The notes under the pieces are model-generated. The model saw only the letters and a program-made list of their open reading frames with translations. It did not search any database and had not been told where the DNA came from. A stretch of 64,000 bases of DNA, taken from contig NC_015726.1 in the NCBI RefSeq assembly GCF_000219215.1, forward strand, positions 3,534,001-3,598,000, read 5' to 3'. Each line of letters opens with the position of its first letter. The first letter of the stretch is position 1. This stretch comes from Cupriavidus necator N-1 (GTDB taxonomy: Bacteria > Pseudomonadota > Gammaproteobacteria > Burkholderiales > Burkholderiaceae). Positions 31,082 to 39,577 of this stretch are shown here, one piece after another. A program made the position numbers and the translations under genes.

Positions 31082-31732
31082 TTAAGCTTTGGCTTTGGCC
31101 TTGACGGCCGGGGTGACGATGACCTTGCCGCCCTTGGAGCCGGGAATGGCACCCTTGACCAGCAGCAGCTTGCGCTCTGCGTCGATCTTGGCGATTTCCA
31201 GGTTCTGCACGGTGCGGGTGACATCGCCCAGGTGACCGGTCATGCGCTTGCCCGGGAACACGCGGCCCGGATCCTGCGCCATACCGATCGAGCCCGGCAC
31301 GTTGTGCGAGCGCGAGTTACCGTGGGTGGCACGGCCGGAGGCGAAGTGATAACGCTTGATGGTACCGGCGTAGCCCTTACCGATCGACACGCCCTGCACG
31401 TCGATCTTCTGACCGACTTCGAACAGGTCGACCGACAGCGAACCGCCAGCTTGCAGTTCGGCAGCCTTGGCTGCATCGATACGGAATTCGCGGATGATTT
31501 CGCCGGCTTCCACGCCGGCTTTGGCGAGATGACCCGCCAGCGGCTTGGTAACGCGGCTTGCGCGTCGTGCGCCGAAGGTGACTTGAACCGCGGTATAACC
31601 GTCGGTCTCGTCCGTCTTGATTTGCGTCACGCGGTTGTCGCCGACCTCGACCACGGTAACGGGAATCGAATCACCGTCGTCCGTGAAAATACGGGTCATG
31701 CCAACCTTGCGACCTACAAGGCCAAGGCTCAT
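31082..31732 (-). CDS. rplC: 50S ribosomal protein L3
   Basis: Early-assembly large-subunit protein. The start at 31732 gives 216 residues ([17 protein letters not shown]), with GGAG six bases upstream; a second ATG four codons earlier sits on that site. Conserved motif: [17 protein letters not shown]. It is normally second after rpsJ in the S10 operon, but here it is the first gene of its unit and rpsJ lies 7.5 kb away. A strong promoter lies 138-166 bases upstream. Confidence 0.97.
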
Positions 31733-31824
31733 GGTTTGCTCCATTCCCAGCTGCGATTGGCCGGGGCTGATTGATACACGAAAACTGTGTTTGCTGTGGA
31801 CTTGCGCTAAAGAAGACTGCGCGC

Positions 31825-31863
31825 GGCCAAAGTGGCCAGCCCACTACCCGAGGAAACGGGTAG
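31825..31863 (-). promoter_or_regulatory. Structured 5' leader of the rplC transcript (two hairpins)
   Basis: Just after the predicted start point lie a ctacccg/cgggtag stem (31844-31850 with 31857-31863) and a ggcc/ggcc stem (about 31825-31838). They would sit at the very 5' end of the mRNA, about 95 bases before the rplC start codon. They could stabilise the message or regulate it; neither is shown. Confidence 0.55.
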
Positions 31864-31869
31864 CCTTAC

Positions 31870-31898
31870 ACTATATCGCAGCGGTTTGGAAAGGGCAA
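31870..31898 (-). promoter_or_regulatory. Promoter of the displaced S10 unit, upstream of rplC
   Basis: On the minus strand, TTGCCC (31898-31893) and TATAGT (31875-31870) are spaced by exactly 17 bases. The start point would be near 31863 and the leader about 130 bases long. This separate promoter is what one would expect if the island has cut rplC off from rpsJ. Confidence 0.8.
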
Positions 31899-32030
31899 TA
31901 TGAATTGCGGATTCGCCTGCAGTGTTGTAGGCAGGCTGCCGCAGTAGTGGCGCTTGCGTTGCTTGGGCTGTGGTGTGGAGGCGACGACGGGTAGTTTAAG
32001 CGCCGTAAAGTGCATCCAGGGATGGTTTGT

Positions 32031-32531
32031 TCAGGCGGCGATGCGCACGAAATCGCCGCCATAGAATACCAGCGGTTCGCCCTCCCCGGCGTCGAACGCC
32101 TCGACGGCGCCGACGATCAGCAGGTGATCGCCCACCAAGTCGGCCCGCTCCACGCGGCAGGCCAGCGTCGCCAGCGCCTCGTCCAGGTAGGGCACGCCGC
32201 GCTCGCAGCGCCGGTGGGCGACGCCCGCGAACTTGTCCGCCGACGGGGTGGCGAAGCGGCGCGCCAGTTCGCCATGGCCCGCGCGCAGAATGCTGACGCC
32301 GAAGGGCGCGCCGCGTGAAAACAGGCCCGCATTCGGCGAGTGCATCGCCAGGCTCCACAGGATCAGCGGCGGCGCCAGCGACAACGAGGCAAACGAGTTC
32401 ACGGTCAGGCCGACGGGCCGGCCCTGCGCCCCGCAGGCGCCGATGACGGCCACGCCGGTGGCATAGCGGCCGCAAACCCGGCGCAGCTCGCGGGGATCAT
32501 GGACGGAAGTGGCAGGCGTGGCGGCGTGCAT
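32031..32531 (-). CDS. Flavin reductase (StyB/IifD-like), partner of the flavin monooxygenase
   Basis: Predicted 166-residue NAD(P)H:flavin oxidoreductase of the flavin-reductase-like FMN-binding family. It supplies reduced FAD to the adjacent StyA-like monooxygenase. Visible features: the N-terminal RRVCGRYATGVAVIGA, the flavin-binding segment GLTVNSFASLSLAPPLILWS, GVSILRAGH and the C-terminal HLLIVGAVEAFDAGEGEPLVFYGG region (cut here). The gene starts one base past the monooxygenase stop, so both are translated in step. It is the last gene of the four-gene island operon, whose content fits iif/ind indole-oxidation clusters. Confidence 0.88.
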   Translation of the reverse strand: MHAATPATSVHDPRELRRVCGRYATGVAVIGACGAQGRPVGLTVNSFASLSLAPPLILWSLAMHSPNAGLFSRGAPFGVSILRAGHGELARRFATPSADKFAGVAHRRCERGVPYLDEALATLACRVERADLVGDHLLIVGAVEAFDAGEGEPLVFYGGDFVRIAA

Positions 32532-32532
32532 G

Positions 32533-33774
32533 TCAGGCGGCCTCGGCGACGTACTGGTTGATCAGCTGGTGGCAGGCCTGCGGATCCAGCCACCACGGGA
32601 AGTAGTCCGGCGGATTGTCGAAGCCGTTGGCGATGCGCGCGGCCAGTGCCGGCGCCTGCCCCGCGGCGCCCAGCAGCGCCAGGATATGCGGCGGCGGCGG
32701 GGTCAGCAGCGAGTTGGTCCACGCTACCACGTCGCCCGCGTACTGCCAGTACTGGTCGAAGGTGCGCTCCATCCAGGCCTGGTCGAAGGACTGGTCGCCG
32801 CGCGCCAGGATCGCATCGAGATAGACCTTGCAGCATTTGGCGGCGTTGTTCGAGCCCTGCCCCGTGATCGGGTCGTTGACCACCACGGCATCTGCCATGC
32901 CGAACACCAGCCGCCCGGATGGCAGCGTCAGCACCGGCTTGCGCACCGTTGGCGCGAAGCGACCGGCAAGGATGCCGTTGTCGTCGGTCAGCGCCACCCG
33001 CTCGCAGCGCTCGGCTTCCCACGGCAGGTAGGTCTGCAGGATGCGCAGGCTTTCGGCCAGGTGCTGCGCCGGGGTGCGCGCCTCGGCCCAACGGTCCATC
33101 GGGCCGCCCGGGATGCCTTCGAACACCATGATCTCGCACGGCCCGGACAGCGTCAGCGCGGGGAAGACGAAGTACTCGCCCACGCCCGGGATCAGGTTGA
33201 AGCAAACCCGCGAGAACGGCGTGCGCGGCTCCATGCCGGTCACATAGGTCAGCGCCAGCGCGCGCTGCGGCTTGTCGAAGGGGCTGCGGGAAGCATCGCG
33301 CTCGAAGCGGCTGACGATCTCGCCCTTGCCGGCGGCCAGCAGCACGAGGTCATGCTCGCGGGTCAGGTCCTCCAGCTCGTCCAGGCCGACATCGACGATG
33401 CGCAGGTCGCCGCCGCGTGCAACGAAGGTTTCCATCCACGCCGGCATCTTCAGGCGCTGGTCCACCGCCTGCGCCGGGCGGTCCAGGGGCGCGGCCCAGT
33501 CGATCGCGCGGGCACCGGCCTGCTCGGGATGCGGCACGGCCAGGCCGATGCCCTCCACCGGCGGGCAGGCATCGTCCCACCAGTTCAGCCCGAGCTCGCG
33601 CTCGGCCTGCAGCGCGCGGTCGAACATGCACTGGCTGGACATGACTTTCCCGCCGCGGATCTGCTCGGGTGTCCGGTTGGACAGCAGCGTGACCCGGTAG
33701 CCGTTGGCTTGCAGCCCGAGGGCCATTTGCAGGCCCGACTGGCCGGCTCCGACGATGGCGATGCGTTGGCTCAT
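32533..33774 (-). CDS. StyA-like FAD-dependent monooxygenase, probable indole/styrene epoxidase (IifC/IndA-like)
   Basis: Two-component flavoprotein monooxygenase of the styrene monooxygenase StyA group. Start at 33774 gives 413 residues, the StyA length, with GGAG upstream. The FAD-binding Rossmann motif GAGQSG is at residues 9-14, followed by VTLLSNRTPEQIRGGKV typical of StyA. Other family pieces are FNLIPGVGEYFVFPAL, MADAVVVNDPITGQGSNNA and the C-terminal FPWWLDPQ. StyA enzymes epoxidise styrene or indole with reduced FAD from a reductase; no styrene downstream genes (styC, styD) are present, whereas the neighbours match indole clusters, so indole is the preferred substrate. That last step is inference. 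Confidence 0.85.
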   Translation of the reverse strand: MSQRIAIVGAGQSGLQMALGLQANGYRVTLLSNRTPEQIRGGKVMSSQCMFDRALQAERELGLNWWDDACPPVEGIGLAVPHPEQAGARAIDWAAPLDRPAQAVDQRLKMPAWMETFVARGGDLRIVDVGLDELEDLTREHDLVLLAAGKGEIVSRFERDASRSPFDKPQRALALTYVTGMEPRTPFSRVCFNLIPGVGEYFVFPALTLSGPCEIMVFEGIPGGPMDRWAEARTPAQHLAESLRILQTYLPWEAERCERVALTDDNGILAGRFAPTVRKPVLTLPSGRLVFGMADAVVVNDPITGQGSNNAAKCCKVYLDAILARGDQSFDQAWMERTFDQYWQYAGDVVAWTNSLLTPPPPHILALLGAAGQAPALAARIANGFDNPPDYFPWWLDPQACHQLINQYVAEAA

Positions 33775-33804
33775 GATTTTCTCCTGAAGGTCGTCCGGCG
33801 GCAT

Positions 33805-34593
33805 TCAGCCGGCCAGCTTGCCGATGGCGGGCACATTCTGCTCCGGCCCCATGGCGGAATAGCCGCCGTCGACGGCATAGTCGGCACCGGTGACGAAGCT
33901 GGCATGGTCGGAACAGAGGAAGAGCACCACCTGTGCCACTTCATCGGGCTCGCCGACGCGGCCCAGCAGGTGAAACGGCGCGGCCACCGCATCGGTGCGG
34001 GCGCGGTTGCCGCCGCTGACCTCATCCATTAGCCGGCACCAGGTCCAGCCCGGCGACACCGCGTTGACGCGGATGCGGTCCGGCGCCAGGTCCATCGCCA
34101 TGCTCCGCGTCAGCTGCGCGATGGCGGCTTTCGACACCGGATAGAGCCAGCGCCCGGTCTGCGCCACGTTGGCCGAGATACTGGTGAAATTGACGATCGC
34201 GCCGCCGCCGCGCGCCCGCATGTGCGGATGCACCGCCTGCGCCAGCATCACGCCCGACACCACGTTGACGTCGAGCGCCGCCAGCCAGTCGGCCCGGCCC
34301 GAACGGAAGCCGTCATCGAGATAGGTGCAGGCCAGGTTGACCAGGCAGTCCACGCCGCCAAAGCGCTGCACCACCTGCGCCACGGCATCGCGGACCTGTT
34401 CGTCACGCGTGATGTCGGTGGCGATGAAGAGTGCGTTCGGCCCGAGCTGCGCGGCCACGCGCTCGCCGTTGGCGGCATCGATATCGAAGATCGCCACGCG
34501 CGCGCCGGCCTCGACAAAGGCCCGCGCCACGCCGGCCCCGATCAGCGTGGCGCCGCCGGTGACAATGGCCACCTTGCCCTGCAGTCCTTTCAT
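33805..34593 (-). CDS. Short-chain dehydrogenase/reductase (IifB-like)
   Basis: Predicted 262-residue NAD(P)-dependent dehydrogenase of the classical SDR family. The cofactor motif is TGGATLIGAG at residues 12-21, followed by DIDAANGE, which favours NAD. The catalytic Ser lies in IVNFTSIS and the Tyr/Lys pair in YPVSK; the usual NNAG is changed to NLAC. The C-terminus has the standard VTGADYAVDGG. The start at 34593 has AGGAG six bases upstream. In iif-type clusters the corresponding enzyme oxidises the indole dihydrodiol; the same role is proposed here from context. Confidence 0.85.
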   Translation of the reverse strand: MKGLQGKVAIVTGGATLIGAGVARAFVEAGARVAIFDIDAANGERVAAQLGPNALFIATDITRDEQVRDAVAQVVQRFGGVDCLVNLACTYLDDGFRSGRADWLAALDVNVVSGVMLAQAVHPHMRARGGGAIVNFTSISANVAQTGRWLYPVSKAAIAQLTRSMAMDLAPDRIRVNAVSPGWTWCRLMDEVSGGNRARTDAVAAPFHLLGRVGEPDEVAQVVLFLCSDHASFVTGADYAVDGGYSAMGPEQNVPAIGKLAG

Positions 34594-34676
34594 GCTTGTC
34601 TCCTGTGCCGGCAATCGCCGGCGATGGTTGCGGGCGGGCCTCTGCGGGCCCGTTCCGGACCTATGCCGCGCGCTGC

Positions 34677-35906
34677 CTACTTGCCATCGCTCTGCTGCCA
34701 GCGCGCCATCAGCGTGTTCGACGGCAGCGTCTCGTCCAGCAGCTTGCGCGCGGTCTCCACGCCCGCCACCGGCAAACCCGCCGGGTCCAGCTTGCCGATC
34801 TGCACCAGCACGCTGGCCTGGTCCCAGTAGATATGCTCGTGGTACAGCTTGTCACCGCGGAACTTGACGATGGCGATCAGCGGGATCTCCACGCGCTTGC
34901 CGGTGGGCGGCACGCCGGGCAGCATCCAGTCGATCTCGCAGGTATGCGTGAAGCAGAACAGCATCTCGTCGACGATCTGCGTGGCCCCGACCGTGCGCGA
35001 CAGCGGGATCAGCGTGGTGTCGGGCGGATTGCTGTGCACGAAATGGTGCTGGTAGAACCGCCGCAGCTGCGCGTAGCCGACGCCGCCGGTCATGGTCGGG
35101 ATATGGTTCACATAGGGCTGCGGCACCATCGTCGCCATGGTGGCGTCGACATCGCGGGTGGCGAATTCATACTCGCAGTGCTTGTCCCACAGCGCGGAGA
35201 AATCGTAATGCGGCCCCATCTCGCCGCGCAGCGCAGCGATCGAGCGCTGGTGCGCCATCAGCGCCGAGGGCTTGTCGAAGTGCTCGCCGCCCGTGCGTGC
35301 AAAGGCATGGTCTACGCCGGCGTAGACGTAGACCTCGATGTTCTCGCGCCCGGCCAGGGCTTCGCAGATCGCAGCCTGGGCCTGCGGCGGGCAGAATCCG
35401 TCTTTCTCGGCGATATGCAGCACCAGGCGGCCGCGCACGTTGGCGGCCTCGCCCAGCGCGTGCTCGATGCCCACGCCGTAGTACGCCACCGCGCAGGCCA
35501 CGTCGGGCAGCCGGCAGGCCGCCAGGTAGGCCAGCTTGCCGCCCAGGCAGAAGCCCAGCACGCCGGTCTGGCCGACGCATTCCGGCCGCGCCCGCAGTGC
35601 CTCAAGCGCGGCGCCCACATCCTGCACGCCCGTGGCTTCGTCGAACTGCTGGTACAGGCCCAGCGCCCGCTGGAAGTCCTCGCCGCGGTCGGTCAGCTCG
35701 ATCCCGGGCGCGATGCGCCAGAACAGGTCGGGCACCAGCACCGTATAGCCCTCCTCGGCGTAGTATTCCGCCACCTGCCGCATGGTCGCGTTGACGCCGA
35801 AGATCTCCTGGCACAGCACGATGCCGGGGCCCTTGCCTGCCGCCGGGGTGGCGAGATAACCGCTGAAACTGCCTTCGGGGGTCTGGATCTGGATGGTCTG
35901 GCCCAT
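34677..35906 (-). CDS. Dienelactone hydrolase-SnoaL fusion protein (IifA-like)
   Basis: 409-residue protein of two domains. Residues 1 to about 230 form a dienelactone hydrolase (alpha/beta hydrolase) with nucleophile Cys120 in GFCLGG, Asp169 in AEKDGF and His200 in VDHAF. Residues about 235-400 resemble a SnoaL/NTF2-like barrel (DFSALWDKHCEYEFATRDVD, YAQLRRFYQHHF, YHEHIYWDQAS). This fusion is known beside StyA-like indole oxygenases; a cofactor-free step forming anthranilate from 3-hydroxyindolin-2-one has been assigned to a protein in this position in the iif cluster. The mapping onto this gene is inferred from gene order and memory of that cluster. First gene of the operon. Confidence 0.8.
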   Translation of the reverse strand: MGQTIQIQTPEGSFSGYLATPAAGKGPGIVLCQEIFGVNATMRQVAEYYAEEGYTVLVPDLFWRIAPGIELTDRGEDFQRALGLYQQFDEATGVQDVGAALEALRARPECVGQTGVLGFCLGGKLAYLAACRLPDVACAVAYYGVGIEHALGEAANVRGRLVLHIAEKDGFCPPQAQAAICEALAGRENIEVYVYAGVDHAFARTGGEHFDKPSALMAHQRSIAALRGEMGPHYDFSALWDKHCEYEFATRDVDATMATMVPQPYVNHIPTMTGGVGYAQLRRFYQHHFVHSNPPDTTLIPLSRTVGATQIVDEMLFCFTHTCEIDWMLPGVPPTGKRVEIPLIAIVKFRGDKLYHEHIYWDQASVLVQIGKLDPAGLPVAGVETARKLLDETLPSNTLMARWQQSDGK

Positions 35907-36190
35907 GGCCTGCGCTCCTTGTCGTTCTCTTTCCAGTATCTGGTGGGACTGCCGTGCTGGCTTCCATGATGGTGGCTCCGCACCGCAGCAAACTAGCCGC
36001 TGGACGCAGCGGCTATCCGATTAGTGCAGGAAACTTCGGAATCGGTCAACGCCGCAGCGCTGACAGCGGGGCCATCCGCTATAGTGGATCGCGTGGGAAA
36101 CCGTGCCCGGCCGTCATGCCGGGCCGGCCCCGGAACCAGCGGCGCGCACGGTCACCGGCAGCGCCGCGGCCCCGCCAGAGGAGCGAGACA
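35907..36190. promoter_or_regulatory. Divergent promoter region between the island operon and the AraC-type regulator
   Basis: The 284-base region holds an 8-base inverted repeat, agccgctg/cagcggct (35995-36002 with 36007-36014), a candidate operator. Toward the regulator, TATAGT at 36080-36085 could be a -10 box, with CTGACA 14 bases upstream (36060-36065), a short spacing. GGAG lies before each start codon. No gene is seen. Confidence 0.45.
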
Positions 36191-37192
36191 ATGCAGCTGC
36201 CCCCCGCCGCCGGACCGCTGGCGAGCGCCCTGCTCGGCGATCCCGCCCGGTGCGTGTTCGCCTCGACCGACCTGGCCGAGACGCGCGCCGCGGTCGGGCG
36301 CGTGTTCAAGCCGCACCGGCTCGAGATACGCGGCCCCCGGTTGCAGGCACGCATGCACCATGCGCCGCTTGGCGCGGTCTCGTTCAACCGCCTGGCCTAC
36401 GGCGCCGACGTCACCATCGACCCCGGCCCGCTCGGCGACTTCCTGCTGGTGCAGATGCCGCTGCAAGGACAGGCCGAGATCCGCTGCGGCGACCAGCACA
36501 TCGTCTCCACGCCCGACTGCGCTTCGGTGCTGACGCCCAGCGATGCGCTGGCCATGCGCTGGAGCGCCGACAACGACCAGCTGATCGTGCGCATCGAACG
36601 CAGTGCGCTGGAACGCGTCTGCGCCGCCCACCTGGGCCGGCGCCCCGAGCAGCCGCTGCGCTTCGCGCTCGGCATGGCCTGGCGCAGCGGCGCCTGGTAC
36701 GAACTGATGCGCTATCTCGCCGCGATGCTGGAGACCGCGCCCGAGACCGCGCGCCATCCGCTGACCGCCTGCCAGCTGGAACAGCTGGTGATCGGCACGC
36801 TGCTGACCTGGCAGCCGCACAGCCTGTCGGACGCTTTGCGCGAGCACGGCAAACCGCTGGCACCACGCCATGTGAAGGTGGTAGAGGAGTACATTCACGC
36901 GAACGCCGCTGCGGAGCTGACGCCGGCCTTGCTGGCCGAGGTTGCCGGCGTCAGCGTACGCAGCCTGTTCGCCGGCTTCCGCGAGCATCGCGGCACCGGG
37001 CCGATGGCCTATCTGCGCACGGTGCGCCTCGAGCGCGTGCGGCACGACCTGCTGAACGACGCGTCGGTGTCGTCAGTGAGCGGGGCAGCGCTGCGCTGGG
37101 GCTTTGCCCATCTGGGGCGCTTCAGCGCGGAGTACCGGCGCGCGTTCGGGGAGTGCCCCGCGCAGACGTTGCGGCGGCGCGGGGCGGGCTAG
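36191..37192 (+). CDS. AraC/XylS-family transcriptional regulator (IifR-like)
   Basis: Predicted 333-residue regulator. The first 190 residues resemble the AraC-binding-like sensor domain of benzoate and p-cumate regulators (RLEIRGPRLQARMHHAPLG, ITVDPG-like VTIDPGPLGDFLLVQMPL). Two helix-turn-helix motifs follow from about residue 235: LTPALLAEVAGVSVRSLFAGF and the second around SGAALRWGFAHLGRFSAEY with the conserved FGECPAQTLR end. Start at 36191 is chosen for GAGG upstream; the frame continues to 35954 without family similarity. It is divergent from the catabolic operon and is its likely activator. Confidence 0.85.
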   Translation: MQLPPAAGPLASALLGDPARCVFASTDLAETRAAVGRVFKPHRLEIRGPRLQARMHHAPLGAVSFNRLAYGADVTIDPGPLGDFLLVQMPLQGQAEIRCGDQHIVSTPDCASVLTPSDALAMRWSADNDQLIVRIERSALERVCAAHLGRRPEQPLRFALGMAWRSGAWYELMRYLAAMLETAPETARHPLTACQLEQLVIGTLLTWQPHSLSDALREHGKPLAPRHVKVVEEYIHANAAAELTPALLAEVAGVSVRSLFAGFREHRGTGPMAYLRTVRLERVRHDLLNDASVSSVSGAALRWGFAHLGRFSAEYRRAFGECPAQTLRRRGAG

Positions 37193-37204
37193 GCTGGTGA
37201 TCGC

Positions 37205-38772
37205 TCAGTTCGTCGCGCAACTGTAGCTGGCAGCAAGACTGGCATCTCCCGACCCCGAGTACTTCGGGAATTTCGGGTACACGCACAGCGGCATGGTGCG
37301 CACCACGGTCTGCCGCGCGTCCATCTTCGAACTCTGCAGCTGTTCAGGGGCCACCGATTTCTCGACCCAGTCGATCATGCCCCCGAGATAGTCGACCTGA
37401 TCCGGGCCGACACCGCCTTGCACATGCCCGACACCCGGCTCGAGGTAGAAGCGTGCATTGGCCGCACCGGCGCCAGCAAGCTGGGGCATCGCCATGAAAT
37501 TGCGAACGTGGTCCCTGCCGCTGAGCGGCGAGTCGGCGCCGCCGTGCCACGAAATCAGCTACTTGCCCGATGACACGAATTGCGCGATGGCACGCATATC
37601 GTGATCCGCCCCAGCCTGCTGCAAGCCGGCGGCGATCGGCGGCAAGTCCCGCGTCACGTCGAACGTTGCCTGCAAGCTGCCCGGCTGCGTGGCGGGCAAC
37701 GTCTACGCCGCGTTGCCCGTGGCGATGGCGGCGAAGCCGCCGCCGAGGCCCACGTAGTATGGCAAGAATTCGCCAAAATCGGCCCAGTAGTAGCCCGCGT
37801 AGACCAGCGCGCCCGCCGCGTCGCTCAGCGGCCCGACCTGTTCCTGAACGGTGCGCAGCTGCCCGGGGGTCAGGCAGGTGGCCGCATCAGCCCCGGGGGC
37901 ACCGCACGCCAGCGCGGCCGGACTGAAGGTACAGGCGTTCGGGTTGGCGATGATGCCGTCCCTGATCCCATCCAGCCCGTCACATGCTGCGATCGCGGCA
38001 GCGTTCAGCGCTGTCCACTGGGCCGCGGCCGGCATGTCGGTCGGAACCGGCACGCCGGGCCAGGTTGAGCCACGCTGCTGTCTGCGTGGCCATGTTCATG
38101 GTTTCCGCGCCGGCGATGATCCCGTCATACTGGTCCGGCCAGCGCTGCGCCGCGATATAGGCATTGCGCCCGCCATTGGACGCGCCGTTGAAGTAGGTAT
38201 AGCTGGGTGCGCGCCCGTAGAACGCCTTGACTGCTGCCTTGGCGAAAGCGATCGTGGTGCCGACCGCGGCATAGGCATAGTCGGACTTCTCGGTTTGGCT
38301 CGTCAGGAATTCGGAGGGGTCGCCAGTACGGTTGCCGCCATTCGACGCGGCGTACGCAACGGCCCGCTGGAGCGGCTGGTACAGGGGGAAGCCGGCGCTG
38401 AAGCTCTCCACGGTTTTCACCTGCCCATCGAAACCTCCGCCACCCTGGTGCATCAGCCTGCCCGTCCAGTTGTCCGGCAGATCCACTTCGATGTCGAGCA
38501 ACGTGCCGCTGGTTGCCGAAACCTTGCAGTAGCCCGGCAGCCCGCCCGCCGCCTCGATGCGCTTTACCGCCGTTATGCTGGCCCCGCCGATGGCCCTGCC
38601 TTACAGCGTAGCGCACGCCGCCGTGTAGTCGACCGCGGCCACGGTTGAAGCTTCAGGCTGCCCATCGCCGCCGCCGCACTCACTGAGCGTGAGTCCGATG
38701 CCCAACGCCAGGGCAATGCCGATGGCATTGCCCGAGCGCGGACGCACGGGTCCGGTGAGTCCTTTCAAACAT
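37205..38772 (-). pseudogene. Decayed tannase/feruloyl esterase family gene
   Basis: The remains of a secreted esterase can be followed along the minus strand, but the frame is broken repeatedly. Near the start, the ATG at 38772 is one base out of frame with the signal-peptide-like sequence, which is readable only from a TTG at 38768. A TAA interrupts at 38601-38603. The main body reads LDIEVDLPDNWTGRL, GGNRTGDPSEF and the nucleophile region FNGASNGGRNAYIAAQRWP, with the Ser of GASNGG kept. A one-base frameshift follows near 38055-38065. TAG codons lie at 37703-37705 and 37559-37561 (before LISWHGGAD). The C-terminal VEKSVAPEQL ends at 37205. At least three stops and one or two shifts make it non-functional unless the assembly is wrong. 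Confidence 0.85.
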
Positions 38773-39268
38773 GATTGTCTCCTCTGGGGGGCGCCACGCT
38801 TAGGGTTGCGGCTTTGCCGTCACGACTGAAATAAGGTAAAGCCGCTGCGGGGGACGCGCCGGAGCGCCATTTCGCGCTCCCCTTTTTCAAGATTTCGAAC
38901 GCATGAAGAGGACCAGCACCGGGACGTTGAGCGGTGCGGGGATTGCTGCTTCTCGGGCAGGGCGCCGGGCACCATGACGGACACGCCGATCAGCGTAGCA
39001 GCGTTGGCGTCGCGGCTTTGATTTACATCACTTGCGCCAGTTGCAATCGACGTTAGTGATACAACATGATTCAATCAATCAGTGCTTATGTATCACTTTG
39101 CGGCGCGAGATGGCGGCAGCAACCGGATCGATTCGTCGCCCTCGCTCGCACGGTACGGGAGCAATCGGGCGAGCAAGGCAGCTGTATGCAAGCCTTGAAA
39201 ACAAAAACGGCGAACCATACGGTTCGCCGTTTTGCTGCAGCAGGCCGCGGGCGCGGCCCGAAGCATGA
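38773..39268. other. Island end region between the pseudogene and rpsJ
   Basis: No credible gene is seen in about 496 bases. It contains the rpsJ terminator (39204-39233) and a 9-base inverted repeat, agtgataca/tgtatcact, at 39055-39063 and 39089-39097, separated by 25 bases, which looks like a binding site. The stretch around 39000-39100 is clearly more AT-rich than its surroundings. Confidence 0.5.
39204..39233 (-). terminator. Intrinsic terminator directly after rpsJ
   Basis: Perfect 13-base arms (39204-39216 with 39221-39233) enclose the loop atac, and the minus-strand side ends in TTTTTGTTTT. It lies 36 bases past the rpsJ stop and closes the str-tufA-rpsJ transcript on the island side. 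Confidence 0.92.
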
Positions 39269-39577
39269 TTACACCTTGATCTCGACGTCCACGCCTGCCG
39301 GCAGGTCGAGCTTCATCAGCGCGTCAACCGTCTTGTCGGTCGGGTCGACGATGTCCATCAGGCGCTGGTGCGTGCGGATCTCGAACTGATCGCGGCTGGT
39401 CTTGTTGACGTGCGGCGAACGCAGGATGTCGAAGCGCTGGATGCGGGTCGGCAGGGGCACCGGGCCCTTGACGATCGCGCCGGTACGCTTGGCGGTATCC
39501 ACGATTTCCGCAGCCGACTGGTCGATCAGGCGGTAGTCGAAAGCCTTCAGGCGGATACGGATCTTCTGGTTCTGCAT
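39269..39577 (-). CDS. rpsJ: 30S ribosomal protein S10
   Basis: 102-residue small-subunit protein, also NusE of the antitermination complex. It begins [19 protein letters not shown] and has [21 protein letters not shown] (trimmed). It follows tufA by 78 bases. Normally it heads the S10 operon; here a terminator follows it and rplC is 7.5 kb away. Confidence 0.98.

Follow-up and report, generated by a model that had tools for sequence, protein, structure and literature searches.

The genes for the ribosomal proteins S10 (rpsJ) and L3 (rplC) are separated by 7,536 bp in Cupriavidus necator N-1, and the gap is occupied by a cassette of the iif/ind type, which is predicted by homology to convert indole to anthranilate. 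The locus lies within a 64,000-nucleotide stretch of contig NC_015726.1 (assembly GCF_000219215.1, positions 3,534,001 to 3,598,000), here called the window, and positions are those of the window unless a contig is named. We consider it probable (roughly 0.8) that the cassette is an old acquisition into an already existing transcription boundary, that it has been inherited mainly vertically and that it has then decayed repeatedly. Gene content, position, conservation, the decay series and the flanking signals at empty sites are observed, and a single acquisition, tolerance through the older boundary, the substrate and the regulation are inferred. The most novel part of the locus is a covarying hairpin in the rplC leader, the cassette itself being of a known type and not a new island. 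The features of the locus are:

31082..31732, minus strand: rplC (L3), first gene of the downstream unit; gene call and L3 match
31742..31769, minus strand: conserved hairpin, 6-pair stem with octaloop CAATCGCA, between the promoter and the rplC start codon; match of model R2 at C3:3565742-3565769
31870..31898, minus strand: promoter-like site TTGCCC-17-TATAGT before rplC; 9/12 consensus matches
32031..32531, minus strand: flavin reductase (IifD/IpoB-like); PF01613
32533..33774, minus strand: flavin-dependent indole/styrene-type monooxygenase (IifC/IndA/IpoA-like); PF17885
33805..34593, minus strand: short-chain dehydrogenase (SDR; IifB/DhoB-like); sequence-family matches
34677..35906, minus strand: DLH-SnoaL protein (IifA/DhoA-like); PF01738, PF12680
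36188..37192, plus strand: AraC/XylS-type regulator (IifR/WhpR-like), divergent from the enzyme genes; PF14525, PF12833, AndR model below its cut-off
37205..38772, minus strand: tannase/feruloyl esterase pseudogene, in pieces; PF07519 on two pieces, upper boundary placed by eye at the remnant's first ATG
39204..39233, minus strand: intrinsic terminator after rpsJ; 13-pair stem, loop 4, A-rich 5' side, T-rich 3' tail
39269..39577, minus strand: rpsJ (S10), last gene of the upstream unit; gene call and S10 match

Both ribosomal genes are on the minus strand, rpsJ ending at 39269 and rplC starting at 31732, and the whole genome contains one S10 match and one L3 match. The gap holds five intact genes, all open (flavin reductase, StyA-like oxygenase, SDR, DLH-SnoaL protein and AraC regulator), and the tannase pieces in broken frames. 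An earlier note on this DNA, made from its letters, had described the S10 operon as split by one 7.5 kb island of genes without a link to translation, one of them a pseudogene. The split and the nature of its genes were confirmed. The single island was not, as the gap instead combines a cassette that occurs in 30 other genomes, with gaps of 5.4-6.1 kb, and a tannase remnant that only this genome has, the 54 further junctions compared in the genus giving no match (tblastn, E ≤ 1e-8). The guanine-cytosine content of the cassette is about 0.68-0.71, compared to about 0.59-0.63 for the flanking ribosomal genes; such a contrast is usual for highly expressed genes and is taken as no proof of foreign origin. 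An inverted repeat, GTGATACA...TGTATCAC (39056-39096), was seen by eye in the interval separating the tannase remnant from the rpsJ terminator, and resembles an operator that the tannase gene has left behind.

S10 and L3 matches were found in 56 and 58 (one below the cut-off), respectively, of the 60 genus genomes searched. Both were on one contig in 55, which were compared; G006 (two contigs), G021, G045, G047 and G051 were dropped. The comparison of the junction across related genomes, which the earlier note had in view, gave a full cassette in 31 of the 55, part of it in 9 and none in 15, the full cassettes all having the same place and orientation. The cassette is at the same rpsJ-rplC place in Cupriavidus sp. 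IDO, for which indole degradation has been reported, and in the dropped genome G006 the rpsJ contig carries the cassette oxygenase. The hydrolase (DLH-SnoaL) gene was kept in 9/9 partial cassettes and was alone left in eight of them (in G037 together with SDR scraps, in G042 as a match in two pieces); in the ninth, G014, the regulator and the oxygenase are gone and the SDR is shortened. Since the hydrolase gene lies inside the block, deletions on both sides are needed for the hydrolase-only state. The breakpoints differ, and the partial genomes are placed among full ones in the tree. Within the genus the junction can be followed from the empty state through the full cassette to the hydrolase alone. 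For the hydrolase, the ratio of nonsynonymous to synonymous substitution rates ranged from 0.04 to 0.14 across six pairs that include a partial genome (two pairs both partial) and from 0.03 to 0.11 across five full pairs. As the hydrolase is kept under selection, it may have a role outside the pathway. A further decay step was observed in G003 (counted as full), the cassette oxygenase of which is in two overlapping pieces, and a reductase remnant remains in the 540-bp gap of G059 (counted as none). The 710-bp gap of G052 contains about 480 bp without a match to any full cassette.

The signals flanking the insert are also found where it is missing. By eye, empty Cupriavidus sites, among them those of the six-genome basal clade, were seen to have a terminator close behind rpsJ as well as a promoter and leader before rplC, and similar ones were seen in all four genomes examined of the sister genus (g24, which we take to be Ralstonia). 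As these sites include the sister genus, the boundary appears older than the insert. When short gaps were compared to full gaps by BLAST, the matching stretch was that adjoining rplC. In C. necator N-1 the terminator was borne out at the claimed distance, its stem beginning at 39233, 36 bases beyond the rpsJ end, and it reads as bidirectional because its 5' side is A-rich. Of the claimed consensus promoter before rplC, a promoter-like site is present, but it is near-consensus only. The suggestion that terminator and promoter were adaptations to the insert does not hold, given their presence at the empty sites. A scan gave 3 terminator-like sites compared to 4.2 (standard deviation 2.2) in shuffles, i.e. 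not above chance, and 2 promoter-like sites compared to 0.8 (standard deviation 0.9). The scan is weak evidence for the two signals, and their support rests on the conservation of both.

The five genes make up an iif/ind-type indole-to-anthranilate cassette, with the activities predicted by homology. The two-component indole-type oxygenase and flavin reductase (PF17885 and PF01613), the A-B-C-D gene order with a DLH-family IifA and an SDR IifB, and the AraC/XylS regulator expected of iif/ind clusters are all present. The oxygenase scored 642 bits to PDB 7z4x and 144 bits to the styrene monooxygenase 3ihm, and was below the cut-off of the NCBIfam StyA model (216 of 550 bits). The entry text of 7z4x gives only a putative dehydrogenase/oxygenase subunit (flavoprotein); the protein is presumably an indole monooxygenase. 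The match to 9lrq, which bears an unrelated name, was also strong (602 bits). A protein search with the hydrolase found 6,723 proteins at E ≤ 1e-20, of which 120 were listed; it added little and was not used. The papers PMC4577076, PMC6221969, PMC12538310, PMC9871250, PMC7247131 and PMC2704228 are cited here and below from parts of their text. IifA has been described as a dienelactone hydrolase (PF01738, 416 aa), IifB as an SDR, IifD as a flavin reductase and IifR as an AraC/XylS regulator (PMC4577076). IifC with IifD forms the dihydrodiol, IifB 3-hydroxyindolin-2-one and IifA anthranilate (PMC6221969), and iifA/B are homologous to dhoA/B and iifC/D to ipoA/B (PMC12538310).

In a tree of 76 rows the sister genus g24 branches next to Cupriavidus, and six empty-site genomes form the basal clade of the genus. 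Pairwise distances of all five cassette genes track the ribosomal ones (Spearman 0.81-0.90, 30-39 genomes; the statistic ignores kinship), which favours mainly vertical descent. Among the best 80 of 447 named oxygenase loci, S10 or L3 adjoins in 18 (16 Cupriavidus, 'Burkholderiaceae bacterium 16' and 'Ralstonia sp. 25mfcol4.1'); of the remaining 62, none is beside S10 or L3 and 33 have the same five-gene block. The earlier note had left a choice between arrival in an ancestor and a rearrangement, and arrival is the better of the two.

We propose that two self-sufficient transcription units met between rpsJ and rplC, the former ending in a strong terminator and the latter having its own promoter and leader. 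An ancestor of most Cupriavidus species would have acquired the cassette in the stretch between the terminator and the promoter, and the insert would have been tolerated because the ribosomal units kept their own signals. By homology, the AraC regulator would switch on the operon, the two-component flavin oxygenase would make indole-2,3-dihydrodiol, the SDR would then make 3-hydroxyindolin-2-one and the IifA-like hydrolase would yield anthranilate. Thereafter the cassette would have been mainly vertically inherited and eroded repeatedly, with the hydrolase gene as its lasting part, and in C. necator N-1 a tannase gene would have been added and then have decayed.

Several observations weigh against this reading. 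No gene for the outer-membrane protein IifE/IpoC (MetA pathway) was found among the island proteins scanned, although IifE is not treated here as pathway-defining, because its role has been reported as ruled out (PMC6221969). The tree was made by a quick method and has 17 open forks. Equal-weight parsimony requires a minimum of 4 some/none changes, compared to about 5 by count (one gain, four losses) for a single gain at the base of the 49-genome clade; the cheapest history by count has two gains, the empty genomes G008, G052, G026, G029 and G034 grouping with carriers (supports 94 and 86, unstarred). In addition, the AraC gene is out of step in the pair G018/G049, which hints at recombination. 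These counts and the AraC pair would suit two or more gains, the cassette having passed from one Cupriavidus lineage to another through homologous recombination in the conserved rpsJ/rplC flanks instead of having been gained once and lost several times. However, all carriers have it at the same place and in the same orientation, the distances of the five genes follow the ribosomal ones, and the reductase remnant of G059 indicates that near-complete loss does happen. Repeated gain is in our judgement the less likely history.

Other explanations fare worse. A recent, strain-specific island, with terminator and promoter evolved to repair the operon, would be in line with a tannase remnant unique to this genome among 55, but the cassette is in 30 other genomes and the two signals exist where it is absent. 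A Pfam scan of seven island proteins revealed neither integrase nor transposase, no direct repeat of at least 16 nt pairs both island ends, and the scars suspected there did not materialize; the direct repeats present are at most 88% alike. The sole 94% inverted pair (35580-35595 / 39247-39262) was rejected as an insertion scar, having one arm inside the hydrolase gene. We regard a recent island as very improbable. A rearrangement or an assembly join of two separate blocks, both raised in the earlier note, can practically be dismissed: nothing was found in favour, rpsJ adjoins rplC at empty sites, and an assembly error is excluded for the cassette because 30 other genomes carry it at the same junction, several on megabase-size contigs. 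It has also been considered that the position is functional, indole-induced read-through from the reductase gene raising expression of the rplC operon. The enzyme genes and rplC have the same direction, and the scan detected no minus-strand terminator from 32031 to 31898; the closest such site is a weak one within the reductase gene. Nevertheless, the full cassette is absent in 24/55 genomes and rplC has its own promoter-like site, which makes such a function improbable.

Splits of rpsJ and rplC are rare outside the genus, as the earlier note had assumed. Among the matches listed for 144 family genomes searched outside the genus, S10 and L3 positions were available for 134 each, and the two genes were close (same contig and strand, match-to-match offset below 900 bp) in 121 of 126 comparable genomes and far apart in 5. 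Not comparable of the 134 with an S10 position were G098 (opposite strands), G066, G077 and G086 (different contigs), and G074, G116, G140 and G166 (no L3 position among the matches listed). In the sample of the order (presumably Burkholderiales), which takes in the window and three family genomes and the L3 list of which is without G301 (no S10 match), the genes were close (below 1,000 bp) in 106/112, the six far ones including the window. On reading of translations only, four of the five far family genomes (G064, G073, G093 and G108) were seen to have quite different intervening genes, e.g. amidase-like, FAD-dependent dehydrogenase-like and xanthine-dehydrogenase-like; the fifth is G079, its gap content being outside the four read. 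As G064 and g15 are in one clade, they may represent one further event. Judged by titles and abstract openings, none of the papers found on the S10 operon, rpsJ-rplC, rplC leaders and Cupriavidus promoters dealt with the split; the original Cupriavidus ind-cluster papers (Qu et al. 2017 and others) were outside this set and may note the location. Nothing was found that joins a Cupriavidus indole oxygenase with a ribosomal protein, and the gene terms looked for gave no match in PMC11434297.

The hairpin before rplC is present in the predicted fold of the leader, and its octaloop has the consensus CAAYYGNA. The whole leader fold is not unusual (z -1.78; 11/200 shuffles fold at least as well). 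In a family alignment (A1, 19 of 23 versions, all distinct) 114/114 cells are paired, with two-sided changes at 3 pairs. In an order alignment (A2, 43 of 51 distinct versions, 8 close variants having been dropped by hand) 256/258 cells are paired and all 6 pairs have two-sided changes, although the selection of rows favours pairing, since the loop pattern and at least 4 pairs were required. Two-sided changes occupied 52 cells of A2, compared to 16.7 (standard deviation 2.7) in shuffles, and slid controls were 11-47% paired. The hairpin thus has traits of leader RNAs: it stands before a ribosomal-protein gene, is conserved across genera and has a stem kept by compensatory changes. Near the promoter end of the leader a second hairpin, CTACCCG...CGGGTAG (31844-31863, minus strand), was observed, the stem letters of which are changed in g24 and G062 with pairing apparently kept (by eye).

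The first hairpin was found in 122 of 126 upstream regions (120/124 genomes) of the family and the order, those failing being G005, L209, L215 and L218. The regions came from 80 family genomes, 25 order genomes picked by model R1 and 19 without an R1 match, G000 and G067 being represented twice; for the last group 20 of 80 eligible genomes were taken (every fourth, one swapped) and one was unreadable. Model R1 had matches in 29/120 order genomes, 27 of the 30 matches directly preceding rplC, and the 19 readable regions without a match had the loop pattern in 16, a variant in two and none in one. In a search of the class, model R2 gave 46 matches in 39/134 genomes (E ≤ 0.5), and 12 of 30 loci examined were before rplC. 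As 8 of the best 9 R2 loci were among these, the weak matches are mostly chance. In a wider-class sample not chosen by a model (39 of 114 eligible genomes, about every third in L3-list order), a hairpin with at least 5 pairs was found in 10/39 genomes, compared to 0.075% in simple letter shuffles; it was not found before rplC in Escherichia coli K-12. With strict filters (E ≤ 0.5) the single R2 match in the C. necator N-1 genome was the rplC site itself. No Rfam 15 family matches the hairpin. In the part of the window compared with Rfam only one sub-threshold small RNA match was found, over the rpsJ end, and there were two sub-threshold matches in 18 order loci and none at gathering score in 8 further loci. 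In the papers found on rplC and S10 leaders, judged by titles and abstract openings and with PMC7247131, seen in part, as the likeliest paper, the hairpin was not found.

The hairpin is a candidate ribosomal-protein leader RNA and may be new. With a little less than even confidence we suggest that this hairpin, with its stem of at least six pairs, is an undescribed regulatory RNA through which the rplC-led operon is controlled, L3 or L4 perhaps being its ligand. Its distribution would be broad in Burkholderiales and patchy among the remaining Gammaproteobacteria. In genomes with rpsJ and rplC close together it falls within their short spacer, and so is not necessarily a 5' leader in all of them. 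If the suggestion is correct, independence of the rplC unit would help to explain why the rpsJ-rplC gap has taken up foreign genes. The locus illustrates how a supposedly untouchable ribosomal operon can harbour foreign genes through much of the history of a genus, its break lying at an older transcription boundary.

A second cluster of the indole-oxygenase type is found elsewhere in the genome:

C1:2553700-2561400: AraC, SDR, oxygenase, reductase, amine-oxidase-like FAD oxidoreductase, PF04199 cyclase, MetA protein

Eleven genus genomes, C. necator N-1 included, have another oxygenase gene elsewhere, with about 60% identity to the cassette oxygenase (59% between the two in C. necator N-1), and in 11/11 the cluster contained AraC, SDR and reductase genes, with a DLH homolog absent (E ≤ 1e-10, within the stretch around the cluster). 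G006 has yet another, more distant oxygenase cluster. The second cluster is present in 7/9 partial, 4/31 full and 0/15 empty genomes (Fisher p 0.0005, partial compared to full); the partial genomes G046 and G057 have none. When relatedness is taken into account, only 5 independent pairs remain, of which about 2 favour a link with decay, 0 oppose it and 3 show no difference, and a link between cassette decay and the second cluster is suggestive only.

Among the known systems close to the cassette is the iif operon of Acinetobacter (iifABCDE and iifR; PMC4577076, PMC6221969), with which it has in common the A-B-C-D order, the Pfam families of A, B and D, the C-type flavin oxygenase and the AraC/XylS regulator. 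It differs in having no iifE-like gene, in its regulator being divergent from the enzyme genes and in its place between rpsJ and rplC. The WHOP cluster dhoAB-ipoABC-whpR of Pseudomonas savastanoi (PMC12538310) has an equivalent gene set, whereas the cassette is a single compact block without ipoC and without ant or cat genes. With the GS cluster of Providencia rettgeri (PMC9871250) the cassette has AraC, SDR, StyA-like and reductase genes in common, but a DLH-type gene stands here in place of the PF04199 cyclase. It is the second cluster of C. necator N-1 that has a set matching the GS cluster, including the PF04199 cyclase, the oxidoreductase and the MetA protein.

The hairpin offers a convenient case in which to study how ribosomal genes are controlled beyond the model of E. 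coli. In E. coli the S10 leader is bound by L4. The hairpin resembles the ribosomal leader RNAs of PMC7247131 in being a structured element directly before a ribosomal-protein operon; in the main text of that paper rplC occurs once, in the row of an Archaeoglobi L4 leader. The E. coli leader precedes the S10 gene, rpsJ (PMC2704228), whereas the present hairpin is before rplC. If it is a regulatory RNA, its role for the unit headed by rplC would correspond to that of the E. coli S10 leader in front of rpsJ.

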